Assembly: GCF_023238445.1 (NCBI RefSeq)
Contig: NZ_CP096658.1
Coordinates: 558,001 to 622,000, forward strand
Length of the DNA stretch: 64,000 nucleotides
DNA from: Halorussus gelatinilyticus
Lineage (GTDB): Archaea > Halobacteriota > Halobacteria > Halobacteriales > Haladaptataceae
Direction: 5' to 3'
The notes beneath the pieces were generated by a model, which saw only the letters and a program-made list of their open reading frames with translations, did not search any database and had not been told where the DNA came from. Each line of letters begins with the position of its first letter. Position 1 is the first letter of the stretch. Position numbers and translations under genes: made by a program. Of this stretch, positions 15,254 to 40,203 are shown piece after piece.

Positions 15254-15267
15254 GGCTCTGTTGAAAC
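15254..15267 (+). repeat. solitary IS6-type terminal repeat
   Basis: GGCTCTGTTGAAAC matches the ends of the elements at 15759-16434 and 39109-39625, and is followed about 45 bp inward by an AAGTACAGAGG motif also seen inside those ends. No inverted partner is visible on its own, so it is probably a decayed element end. Confidence 0.5.
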
Positions 15268-15423
15268 ACTTCTCAAATATCATATTCTAGTGTGGATACG
15301 TAAGTACAGAGGCCTCACGTATCACTCCGCTCGTAGAATCACTCAATACTTGTCAGCGAGATATAAAGCGTGAGCTACGCGAGTGAGAAATCCGATAACC
15401 ATTAGGGTACGATGTAGCGACCG

Positions 15424-15648
15424 CTACTTTGACTCGCTCCGGCCGACCTCATCACGTACAACGTAGTAGAGAATCCAAACGACCGGGCCACCGAAAAATG
15501 CGCCGAGGCCCCATGCGAGTTCGTGAGAACTTCCACGGCTGTCCGCGTCTCGGTAGATGTAGAACGTTATGAGAAGAGCAAGAGCGACTGCAACAAGAGT
15601 TATCAATAATTCGGTGGTGCCAACAGTACCGGTGTCTACGAGCGTCAT
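15424..15648 (-). CDS. small two-helix membrane protein
   Basis: A 74-residue protein with membrane helices near residues 13-31 and 47-64. Between them is YIYRDADSRGSSHELAWGLGAFFGG, and the tail is charged. The layout resembles PLDc_N-like two-helix membrane proteins common in haloarchaea. Its role is unknown. It lies between two direct copies of the IS6-type end (15254 and 15759). Confidence 0.6.
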   Translation of the reverse strand: MTLVDTGTVGTTELLITLVAVALALLITFYIYRDADSRGSSHELAWGLGAFFGGPVVWILYYVVRDEVGRSESK

Positions 15649-15758: not shown

Positions 15759-16434
15759 GGCTCTGTTGAAATCCTATTCCGCAGATACAATATCATCTGA
15801 AACATCTGGTCGCTGAAGAGTACATATTCAGCACGGCGATTATTGCTACGTAACATGTCTGTCGTAACGTTCAACCAGATGTCGTAACCACCAGAAGTTC
15901 AGCACGACGGTCAGAATGGTTCCAAGAGCGGTCTTCAACGGGCGCTGACGCCACGCAGCATACAGCGTATAGATGCTTGTCAGCACAGCTGCCGTGCTAA
16001 AAATGTTTGGCTTGGATACCCCGAGGATACCGTGGCCTTCTTCTCGAACCCACCACTGTTGAGCGAGAACACCCCGCGTCATCCATGTTTCTTCATCCTT
16101 GGGTGGGGAAAATAAGATTGGATTGACTACTCCCCACAGTATCGAGAGTAACAAGAGACGCCAAGAACGCCGGTAAATAGCATATGCAACAGCAGGAGCG
16201 ACCGGAATTCGCGTCCAGACGCTTTTTGGGTTCGAATGGCGCATCCAAAACCACTCCTCAACCGCAACAGGATCACCGGAAGCCATAGCTAACAGTACAC
16301 GTTTCTTGAGGATAAACGTAGTCGGTGGTGAACACAGATAATGACTACAGTCTCTGTACTGAACGATGCGTCCTTCTCCTGTATTGACCGCAACCGGGTC
16401 AAATATATTACTTGCTGAGGATTTCAACAGAGCC
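15759..16434. mobile_element. IS6-type non-autonomous element carrying a membrane-protein gene
   Basis: This 676-bp segment is bounded by perfect 16-bp inverted repeats, GGCTCTGTTGAAATCC at 15759-15774 and its complement at 16419-16434. The flanking octamers, CCTGAGAC (left) and TCTGAGCC (right), agree at 6 of 8 positions, compatible with a decayed 8-bp target duplication. The ends resemble IS6-family termini. No transposase is present; the only gene is the membrane protein at 15846-16286. The inner end sequence (AATATATT, GACCC, GGTCAATACAG) is shared with the element at 39109-39625. Confidence 0.75.
15846..16286 (-). CDS. multi-pass membrane protein carried by the IS6-type element
   Basis: A 146-residue protein from ATG 16286 (MASGDPVAVEEWFWMRHSNP). 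Three or four hydrophobic segments alternate with conserved-looking polar motifs (WMRHSNPKSVWTRIP, NPILFSPP, TWMTRGV). This resembles a haloarchaeal membrane family I recall as DUF6653. The frame runs upstream into the element's terminal repeat, but that part has no sign of coding. The function is unknown; being passenger cargo of a mobile element is the notable feature. Confidence 0.65.
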   Translation of the reverse strand: MASGDPVAVEEWFWMRHSNPKSVWTRIPVAPAVAYAIYRRSWRLLLLSILWGVVNPILFSPPKDEETWMTRGVLAQQWWVREEGHGILGVSKPNIFSTAAVLTSIYTLYAAWRQRPLKTALGTILTVVLNFWWLRHLVERYDRHVT

Positions 16435-19566: not shown

Positions 19567-19658
19567 CGCTCTGAACATCATCTGAAACTGGTAGGACTTG
19601 CAGCGGTCAATTTGCGTCTCTATTTAACATCGTTACAAGAACCGATCACCAGTTGAGA

Positions 19659-19672
19659 GCTTCAACAAAGCC
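19659..19672 (-). repeat. degenerate IS6-type terminal repeat
   Basis: Read on the minus strand this is GGCTTTGTTGAAGC, close to GGCTCTGTTGAAAT. About 45 bp inward on the same strand is TAGAGACGCAAATTGACC, also found (with one change) beside the element at 39109. It is probably a solo end left by decay. Confidence 0.45.
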
Positions 19673-33198: not shown

Positions 33199-33214
33199 GA
33201 CTCTGTTGAAACCC
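33199..33214 (+). repeat. solitary IS6-type terminal repeat
   Basis: GACTCTGTTGAAACCC resembles the 16-bp ends of the intact elements. It is followed inward by GGTCAATACAGAG (33244-33256), the same inner motif as their right ends. No partner end is visible within the next kilobase. Confidence 0.5.
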
Positions 33215-33258
33215 TCGGTGGTTGATACAATCACATCAGATTTGGTCAATACAGAGAA

Positions 33259-33279
33259 CTCACGGATCGCTCAGTACAG
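33259..33279 (+). repeat. 21-bp direct repeat, copy 1
   Basis: CTCACGGATCGCTCAGTACAG is repeated exactly at 34004-34024. The copies bracket the two small membrane genes at 33335-33860. Confidence 0.8.
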
Positions 33280-33334
33280 GTAAAGCACGTATCGTTCGGT
33301 ACTGAGTGCGAGTCTATCGCTGGCTGGTTAAGAA

Positions 33335-33517
33335 TTATGAAACAACTCGCTTGTATCCGGCGTAAATGAGTTCAGCAATGACCCCTCCAGCCATGATAGC
33401 AACTGCAATTTCAATGTTAACAAGAACGTAGCCCATGATTCCTGCTCCAACAATGCTTGCGACGGAACGTCCGATGTCGGAGTTCGCGTTCGTTCTGCCA
33501 GATTCTGGTGACTCCAT
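33335..33517 (-). CDS. small membrane protein
   Basis: A 60-residue protein with hydrophobic stretches IVGAGIMGYVLVNI and IAVAIMAGGVIAELIYAG after a polar N-terminus. An overlapping frame (33328-33534) lacks this regular pattern and is taken as a shadow. Its function is unknown. Confidence 0.55.
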   Translation of the reverse strand: MESPESGRTNANSDIGRSVASIVGAGIMGYVLVNIEIAVAIMAGGVIAELIYAGYKRVVS

Positions 33518-33653
33518 TCAGATGTTCTACTCACATAGTTGGATACGATTAGTTATAGCCTTTATCTTTGGATTGACACTAAATATGCGCACCTACTGAG
33601 CGGCTGTTTCACTCCGAATCCGTTGGTGAGAACCCTCGGTAAGTACAGGGCAC

Positions 33654-38971: not shown

Positions 38972-39019
38972 GGCTCTGTTTAGTTTCCTCTGATAGACTC
39001 GGTCGCTCTGTTGAGTTCC
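38972..39019 (+). repeat. two degraded IS6-type ends
   Basis: GGCTCTGTT at 38972-38980 and CGCTCTGTTGAGTTCC at 39004-39019 lie in direct orientation just upstream of the intact element at 39109. They are followed by GAAACAGCCGGT (39042-39053), which recurs inside that element. This suggests repeated insertion at the same place. Confidence 0.5.
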
Positions 39020-39108
39020 TGTGGTCAGACACTATCTGCGGTGAAACAGCCGGTAAGTTGGGTTGCGAATATGGGGATTAGAAGGTCAATTGGCGTCTCT
39101 AATATAGA

Positions 39109-39625
39109 GGCTCTGTTGAAATCCCATTCTTCATATATATTCTCGCCTGAAACAGCCGGTCGATGAGAGCTGCGTATCTACCGCTATGAGGATGTGTTTC
39201 TCTCCGAAGGTTCACAGAGTGCAACACGGGCCATGTCCGTAGTGACACTAATTATCACGACTTCCAATCCGTGTTGAGTTGCAATTTTACGAATGGATTC
39301 CGGGGCATACTTCGGGTCAGCGTTTAGAGCACCGCCGCTAAATGAGAGGGTATCGAGAATCCTCATTGAAAGTGGCTGATTCTCGCGTTTTAGTCCACCT
39401 TCACGCGCAATTTCTCCCTCTACCCACTCCCCCGATAAACCCGGTACAGGTGTCTCTCCACTTTCGAACTTGAATCCAGAGTAGCCCGCTTCTCGGAGTT
39501 CCTGTTTCACGCGTTCCCAATCGGTCATTCGTCATCTAATCGAACAACACCGACGATAAGCATTCCCTCTGTACTGACCGCGACTGGGTCAAAATATATC
39601 ACTTGCTGAGGATCTCAACAGAGCC
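39109..39625. mobile_element. IS6-type non-autonomous element with a passenger gene and perfect target duplication
   Basis: The 517-bp element has 16-bp terminal inverted repeats, GGCTCTGTTGAAATCC at 39109-39124 and the complement of GGCTCTGTTGAGATCC at 39610-39625 (one mismatch). It is flanked by an exact 8-bp duplication AATATAGA at 39101-39108 and 39626-39633, the duplication length typical of IS6-family transposition. There is no transposase; the element carries only the gene at 39184-39528. Its ends match the element at 15759-16434. Confidence 0.88.
39184..39528 (-). CDS. hypothetical passenger protein of the IS6-type element
   Basis: A 114-residue protein (MTDWERVKQELREAGYSGFK) wholly inside the element. 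It looks like a compact alpha/beta domain with KIATQHGLEVVIISV near the end and no cysteines or membrane helices. The terminal repeat about 70 bp upstream contains ATATATTTTG on the coding strand, a possible built-in promoter. No family is recognised. Confidence 0.65.
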   Translation of the reverse strand: MTDWERVKQELREAGYSGFKFESGETPVPGLSGEWVEGEIAREGGLKRENQPLSMRILDTLSFSGGALNADPKYAPESIRKIATQHGLEVVIISVTTDMARVALCEPSERNTSS

Positions 39626-40015
39626 AATATAGACTAAAAACGCGCGAGCAACCACGCTAGACCAGACGAGTACAAGTAGACCGATTTCGCTAGAGGCAGA
39701 TAGCCCCTCAGGGAAGAGAAGAAAACCGACGCCGATGAGAACCGCCATAATGAGAATGAAGGAGACATTGTTTTCCATGTACCTGCGACCGATTCCCTGC
39801 TCGTCCACGTACGTGAGAATGATACCGAGAACAAGCCCAATGCCCACGGCAACCAAAAGAGCAACTCCGTACTCAATAGAAGGAACAGTCCCCTGCCACA
39901 ATTCGAACCAGACCCACCCTGTTATAACAAGGCTGACTACCAGTTCGAGGGCAATAGAACCATTCTCTCCTGTCAGTCCCTGTGAGGCTGCTTCGGGGGT
40001 ATCTTCAGCTTCCAT
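39599..40015 (-). CDS. four-helix membrane protein whose C-terminus was remade by the element insertion
   Basis: A 138-residue protein from ATG 40015 with four hydrophobic helices. Its last eight residues, GSVEILSK, are encoded by the terminal repeat of the element. Rejoining the sequence across the 8-bp duplication gives ...FLVYIRDAN followed by a stop, so the original end was only four codons past the insertion point. The membrane core is intact and the protein may still work. Its function is unknown. Confidence 0.7.
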   Translation of the reverse strand: MEAEDTPEAASQGLTGENGSIALELVVSLVITGWVWFELWQGTVPSIEYGVALLVAVGIGLVLGIILTYVDEQGIGRRYMENNVSFILIMAVLIGVGFLLFPEGLSASSEIGLLVLVWSSVVARAFLVYIGSVEILSK

Positions 40016-40203
40016 AACATATCTTCTCTTGGGTCTAAGTTAATGATCGGTGTTTGCTCTGTACTGACCGTTCCAAATGGGTGTATCAACAGTTCCGCGA
40101 TACTCCCACACATACGACAGGACGATTCATACGCTATGTGACCAAGGGGATTTCTAGAGAGTAGGCCACCCACCCAAGTTCCTCAGACAGAATTTCTACA
40201 GGG

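Follow-up and report, generated by a model that had tools for sequence, protein, structure and literature searches.

A transposase-less single-gene element in Halorussus gelatinilyticus and its probable place in a cargo-carrying IS5 family of haloarchaea

The closest described systems in which the ends of an insertion sequence (IS) enclose a passenger gene are the mobile insertion cassettes (MICs) and the transporter IS (tIS). In the case of MIC231 of Bacillus cereus (IS231, IS4 family), IS ends and a target duplication surround a passenger and no transposase; such cassettes are moved in trans by the transposase of a related IS and have been called modular (PMC3913671, PMC2266710), a modularity that in 2008 was reported to be unseen in other IS families (PMC2266710). 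The tIS, e.g. those of the IS1595 family, are IS copies that carry passengers besides their transposase (PMC3129680). Within the haloarchaea, a transposase-free ISH2-type MITE of about 520 bp with one expressed ORF has been described for Haloquadratum and Halobacterium (PMC3119063), and a virus-exclusion function has been proposed for Hlac_3088, the passenger of a Halorubrum lacusprofundi transposon (PMC10544981).

Here we describe a 517-bp element located in a window of 64,000 nucleotides (i.e. the whole stretch of DNA that was analysed) from Halorussus gelatinilyticus. It combines IS-related ends and a target duplication with a gene unrelated to transposition and the lack of a transposase, and thereby has the structure of a MIC. 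The likeness to MIC231 lies in the passenger that sits, without a transposase, between IS-type ends, where mobilisation in trans is something we infer for the 517-bp element; the differences are that its family is IS5, archaeal and makes an 8-bp duplication, that its ends occur in 69% of the sampled class genomes, and that nearly every copy has a cargo of its own. Compared to the tIS, the haloarchaeal IS5 family also includes many transposase-less single-gene forms, and an extra ORF is present in all 47 transposase-bearing elements examined. The ISH2-type MITE is another type of element, with one homologous ORF family and no variable cargo (a comparison that leaves the ends aside), and the likeness to Hlac_3088 is that both are passengers of a haloarchaeal transposon. 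ISHla2 and ISHxa2 share the transposase family and the ends of the 517-bp element but are annotated as ordinary IS5-like elements, and the element of the window has no transposase; the ISHxa2 element in pHALXA01 is flanked by exact CACCGTCT duplications and carries two passengers, one of them an RDD protein. The best reading is therefore that of an IS5 counterpart of MIC and tIS with an unusually fast cargo turnover. In the open-access literature searched, no description of a cargo-carrying IS5 family was found; as far as that literature shows, an IS5 family of archaea whose members regularly carry cargo, with a faster turnover of cargo than of transposase, is new, and individual ISfinder entries may list passengers.

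The 517-bp element, its empty site and its neighbours

A preliminary description of the window had proposed an IS6-type element with 16-bp inverted ends and an exact 8-bp target duplication (39101-39633), carrying a passenger gene in place of a transposase. Much of that reading, though not the family assignment, has held, i.e. the element is mobile, transposase-less and carries a single passenger, and its empty site exists. The AATATAGA duplication on both sides, the inverted ends and the 114-aa gene were read directly from the sequence (Table 1), and the gene is the sole ORF of at least 45 aa within the 517 bp. The two ends have 0 and 1 mismatch to the 16-bp repeat of the family, the one at 39610-39625 being the reverse complement of GGCTCTGTTGAGATCC, and for any one pair of ends an exact 8-bp duplication would arise by chance with a probability of about 1.5e-5. 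HMMs made from the ends of other elements matched at 39109-39182 (L end, E=3e-20) and at 39625-39553 (R-prime end, E=8e-18); conservation of the L end fades past about 65 bp, and the R-prime end is 89% identical over 56 bp to an end of a second element in the window. With up to 3 mismatches allowed, the window has 8 occurrences of the end pattern where 0.97 are expected (none of 100 shuffles reached 8), and with up to 2 mismatches the genome has 16, against one for the reversed control. The 8-bp duplication together with the terminal inverted repeats argues for transposition rather than for an integron gene cassette.

Table 1. Coordinates of the 517-bp element, its parts and related elements in the window
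Feature	Position	Strand	Remarks
Target duplication, left copy	39101-39108	.	AATATAGA; identical to 39626-39633; one copy in empty site
L end: 16-bp inverted repeat (39109-39124, GGCTCTGTTGAAATCC) and conserved subterminal region	39109-39170	+	
Cargo cassette, from border motif TGCGTATC to CATTCC	39171-39566	-	Block common to window and locus L221 (G240), with unlike ends
Passenger gene, 114 aa	39184-39528	-	Predicted small alpha/beta protein
R-prime end: junction motif CGGTCAGTACAGAG (39567-39580), conserved region, 16-bp inverted repeat (39610-39625)	39567-39625	-	
Target duplication, right copy	39626-39633	.	AATATAGA
Second transposase-less element, 676 bp	15759-16434	-	Same 16-bp ends
Earlier cargo unit of this family, now decayed	39004-40074	-	Host of the 517-bp insertion; HMM
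Decayed member	33199-33615	.	Short hydrophobic ORF inside; HMM

The two flanks were joined and used to search the genomes of the class for the empty site that the preliminary description had suggested looking for. A pre-insertion locus with a single AATATAGA was recovered from Natronoglomus mannanivorans AArc-m2/3/4 (G366; locus L113), which aligns to the joined flanks with 89% identity over 466 bp, without a gap across the junction. The 517-bp element thus inserted, with a duplication of 8 bp, where another haloarchaeon has an empty site, and one conserved protein gene sits between its conserved ends of about 60 bp.

Further members of the family in the window, which had gone unnoticed, are the second element and the decayed members at 39005-40074 and 33201-33615. 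The passenger of the second element encodes a DUF6653 membrane protein (15846-16286, minus strand), and its flanks, CCTGAGAC and TCTGAGCC, agree at 6 of 8 positions. A degenerate R-prime-like end lies at 15254-15324, beside the gene of a 74-aa membrane protein (15424-15648, minus strand), and the intact element may have inserted at the far side of this degenerate member. The decayed unit that hosts the 517-bp insertion has an L end at 39005-39071 (E=3e-8) and an R-prime remnant at 40043-40074 (E=6e-3), and its cargo is a gene for a 138-aa membrane protein (39599-40015, minus strand). In N. mannanivorans (G366), a transposase-bearing element carries the same gene as cargo, at 89% identity, between an L end and an R side that are unlike those of the decayed unit. 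The 517-bp element landed in the 3' part of the 138-aa gene of the window, and the final codons of the ORF are therefore insert-derived. The ends of the other decayed member comprise an R-prime match at 33201-33269 (plus strand, E=6e-12) and an inner L match at 33615-33579 (minus strand, E=7e-4); a weak R-prime match at 19616-19672 (minus strand, E=3e-4) possibly marks one more.

Assignment to the IS5 family

The label IS6 proved to be mistaken, as the transposases found between these ends are of the IS5 family. Transposase P0001 matches NF033579 (NCBIfam, E=1e-63) and PF01609 (E=1e-13), i.e. it has an IS5-type DDE domain, and the NCBI annotation names close relatives ISHla2 and ISHxa2. Two relatives with the same ends are present in the H. 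gelatinilyticus genome itself, one at C1:1405815-1407264 with an exact AAACTGCT duplication, an IS5 transposase and a passenger, the other at C1:3638167-3641964 with an exact CCGAGAGT duplication and an IS5-family transposase; many other haloarchaeal genomes likewise have IS5 transposases between these ends, again with exact duplications of 8 bp. (Three congeners align across the locus of the element at 1405815, where the intergenic DNA is too diverged to give the exact target.) The 517-bp element shares both the terminal repeat and the length of the duplication with the elements that hold the cognate IS5 transposase, and on these sequence grounds it is almost certainly a non-autonomous member of an IS5-family (ISHla2-like) transposon family of haloarchaea.

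We consider it extremely improbable that it belongs to IS6 as a non-autonomous element and is mobilised by an IS6 transposase. Ends of the GGC-CTGT type and 8-bp duplications are features of IS6 too (PMC7986276), but the transposases in register with the present ends are IS5 (NF033579), and the full IS6 element with the same ends that the preliminary description had proposed to look for in the genome is not there: the only IS6 match (PF13610, DDE_Tnp_IS240) is flanked by GGCACTGTCTAGTTA. Moreover, a single case of an IS6 tIS has been reported, ISDsp3 (PMC7986276). Nor is the element a composite transposon, since in the window short ends, rather than a complete IS copy on either side, flank the cargo. 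An intact transposase of the subgroup with the best-matching L ends is missing from this genome, and the last jump may for that reason have used an enzyme that has since been lost, or another copy; the subterminal regions of the two intact transposase copies in the genome are somewhat unlike those of the 517-bp element.

The passenger gene and the cargo of the family

Homologs of the passenger occur in 33 of 391 genomes of the class with a patchy spread, and an alignment of 20 sequences has 17 invariant residues. In most comparisons, which involve the more distant homologs with dS near saturation, dN/dS is 0.09-0.14; it is higher and noisy for the few close pairs. The protein matched no Pfam, NCBIfam, PADLOC or PHROG model, and its AlphaFold model, a small alpha/beta protein of moderate confidence (pLDDT 76), matched no PDB structure at E<=0.001. 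The family does include members without convincing genes (the 125-bp element in L066 and a 398-bp element in L107), as would be the case for a plain MITE in which the interior is filler and the ORF a non-functional product of chance; yet the full-length homologs in 33 genomes, the invariant residues and a dN/dS of about 0.1 make such a reading barely credible for the 517-bp element.

Passenger homologs that always occur without the ends had been put forward as an argument against mobility, but this is not what is seen: among 30 homolog loci, the ends are recognisable on one or both sides at about ten and absent at the rest. At two of the loci with ends, besides the window, exact duplications of another sequence are present (L228, CAATCGTC; L247, GGGTGAGT), and these are independent element insertions of homologous passengers. 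Because purifying selection keeps the passenger and it is also found outside elements, we expect it to be an accessory protein that benefits the host rather than a transposition factor.

At the level of the class, the exact 16-mer end is present in 271 of 391 genomes, while the reversed control gave zero among the results listed. Inverted pairs of these ends with varied genes between them are indeed present in other haloarchaeal genomes, as the preliminary description had suggested. The available loci were scanned for end pairs flanked by a duplication in which at least 7 of the 8 positions agree, which yielded 66 distinct elements, 62 of them with 8/8. Of the 66, 47 have a full or partial transposase and 19 have none; the loci had been gathered because they resemble the transposase or the ends, and are thus no random sample. 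All of the 47 have at least one further ORF, and no cargo-free element was among them (an apparent one of 950 bp in L037 was left uncounted, since its second end is a 3-mismatch site and it has no duplication). Transposase-bearing elements measure 1176-5124 bp, apart from three of 816-1392 bp in which the transposase gene is broken or partial; in complete elements of standard layout the transposase starts at bp 53, and the shortest elements with an intact transposase have an ORF of 55-90 aa with two predicted membrane segments. Transposase-less relatives mostly have one small gene, often for a two-segment membrane protein, where the smallest passenger ORFs, of 50-75 aa, were in many cases called genes by hydrophobicity only.

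Several loci illustrate the range of forms. The element in L066 (8780-8904) has the family ends and an exact duplication but lacks any ORF of 45 aa or more, and is a true MITE form. Three members with exact duplications lie within 6.3 kb in Halorubrum sp. GN11_10-6_MGM (L101, 5949-12202), one with a transposase and two with cargo only. A transposase-less element of 967 bp (L139, 1501-2467; G027) appears to encode two acidic proteins that resemble HVO_A0114 (winged helix) and TumE, possibly a toxin-antitoxin pair, the assignment of models to proteins being inferred from a pooled scan. On an IMG/VR contig classed as viral (2554235474_000003; L207, 9928-10843), a cargo-only element encodes a protein that has an HNH domain plus a membrane segment. 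In Halorubrum laminariae (L048, 5949-8200), two opposed transposase copies lie within one end pair with GCTATACC duplications, and this element shares cargo with L049.

Across these elements the cargo varies far faster than the transposase, with a different passenger in almost every copy. Among 69 distinct transposase-bearing elements, cargo DNA was similar in 17 of 2346 pairs, about eight of them over more than 100 bp, and cargo was unrelated in 22 of the 26 pairs (not mutually independent) with transposases at least 93% identical. For instance, in L083 and L085 a stretch of 885 bp that runs through the transposase stop is 99.1% identical, and what follows is unrelated up to the last 17 bp; in L070 and L072 the cargo is 94% and the transposases are 84% identical. 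BLASTP at 1e-3 gave no match between any two of 55 cargo proteins, and no Pfam family is represented more than once among them. That defence functions are the rule among the cargo is not supported: only a few of the 55 proteins matched PADLOC models, of which 9 were hit, each by one protein.

Cassette borders, possible routes of exchange and implications

The cargo has defined limits within the element. Past the transposase stop, about 14 bp are conserved (consensus ACGKTCAATACAGG), after which similarity drops to background; the junction motif is present in 34 of 69 elements, where shuffles gave 3.1 and interior controls 1-5. A similar motif, CGGTCARTACAG, is found about 45-60 bp from the R-prime end in transposase-less elements. 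These border motifs are short and degenerate, and a strict L-side pattern fits 23 of 85 ends. The cargo block of the window (39171-39566) is 90% identical over 380 bp to that of L221, in another haloarchaeal family, with sharp falls at both borders, the transitions being at TGCG[T/A]ATC and CTCTGTACTGACCG; on both sides the ends are 20-70% identical in 20-bp bins. The synonymous divergence of the two passenger genes (0.24) is too small for ends that diverged in place, and cargo and ends therefore differ in history. Like cargo in unlike backbones was seen for the window and L221, for the old 138-aa cargo and G366, and for L070 and L072, i.e. in three transfers for which the borders were examined. 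The cargo is thus a sharply delimited block that occurs within end backbones of more than one kind.

Taken as a whole, we hold it very likely that the 517-bp element is a non-autonomous mobile cassette of the IS5 family with modular cargo. An ISHla2-like IS5 transposase made elsewhere would cut and paste the element; the transposase-less form would have arisen when the transposase was lost from the stretch that separates the R end from the junction motif; and copies of the element would recombine and so swap cassettes in or close to the short conserved border motifs, for which TGCGWATC (L side) and CGGTCARTACAG (R side) are candidates.

Recombination between copies is our tentative choice for the route of exchange, at somewhat less than an even chance. 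Gap repair after cut-and-paste excision, i.e. template switching rather than recombination of intact copies, would also leave the ends and replace the interiors with short-homology borders, and it fits the sharp junction after the transposase stop; random template switching alone would not, however, predict that in most of the 69 elements the borders recur at one motif position, and we regard this route as rather unlikely. Exchange of cassettes would be superfluous if a transposase were to pair a true end with a nearby solo end and move the gene between them, for which the solo and decayed ends that are frequent in the genome and the window would provide the opportunity. Such capture is doubtful, as it leaves unexplained why the cargo border falls just past the transposase stop in most copies and how one cassette, at 89-90% identity, comes to lie within two sets of subterminal ends.

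At a higher level, haloarchaea could have a dedicated gene-cassette shuffling system on IS5 ends, in which discrete cassettes of one gene each, delimited by defined inner borders, move in and out of autonomous and non-autonomous backbones. We consider this a speculative possibility; if true, it would amount to integron-like gene exchange without an integrase.

Since almost every copy carries a different passenger, the family appears to work as a small vehicle for the moving and swapping of single genes. It would thereby be a common way for small genes of unknown function, in many cases encoding short membrane proteins, to spread singly through the haloarchaea. The 16-bp ends, the 8-bp duplication and the inner borders offer a ready definition for finding many more cargo genes. 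The near-identical transposases with unrelated cargo would represent natural snapshots of passenger exchange, and make the question of how insertion sequences pick up and exchange their passengers a testable one.
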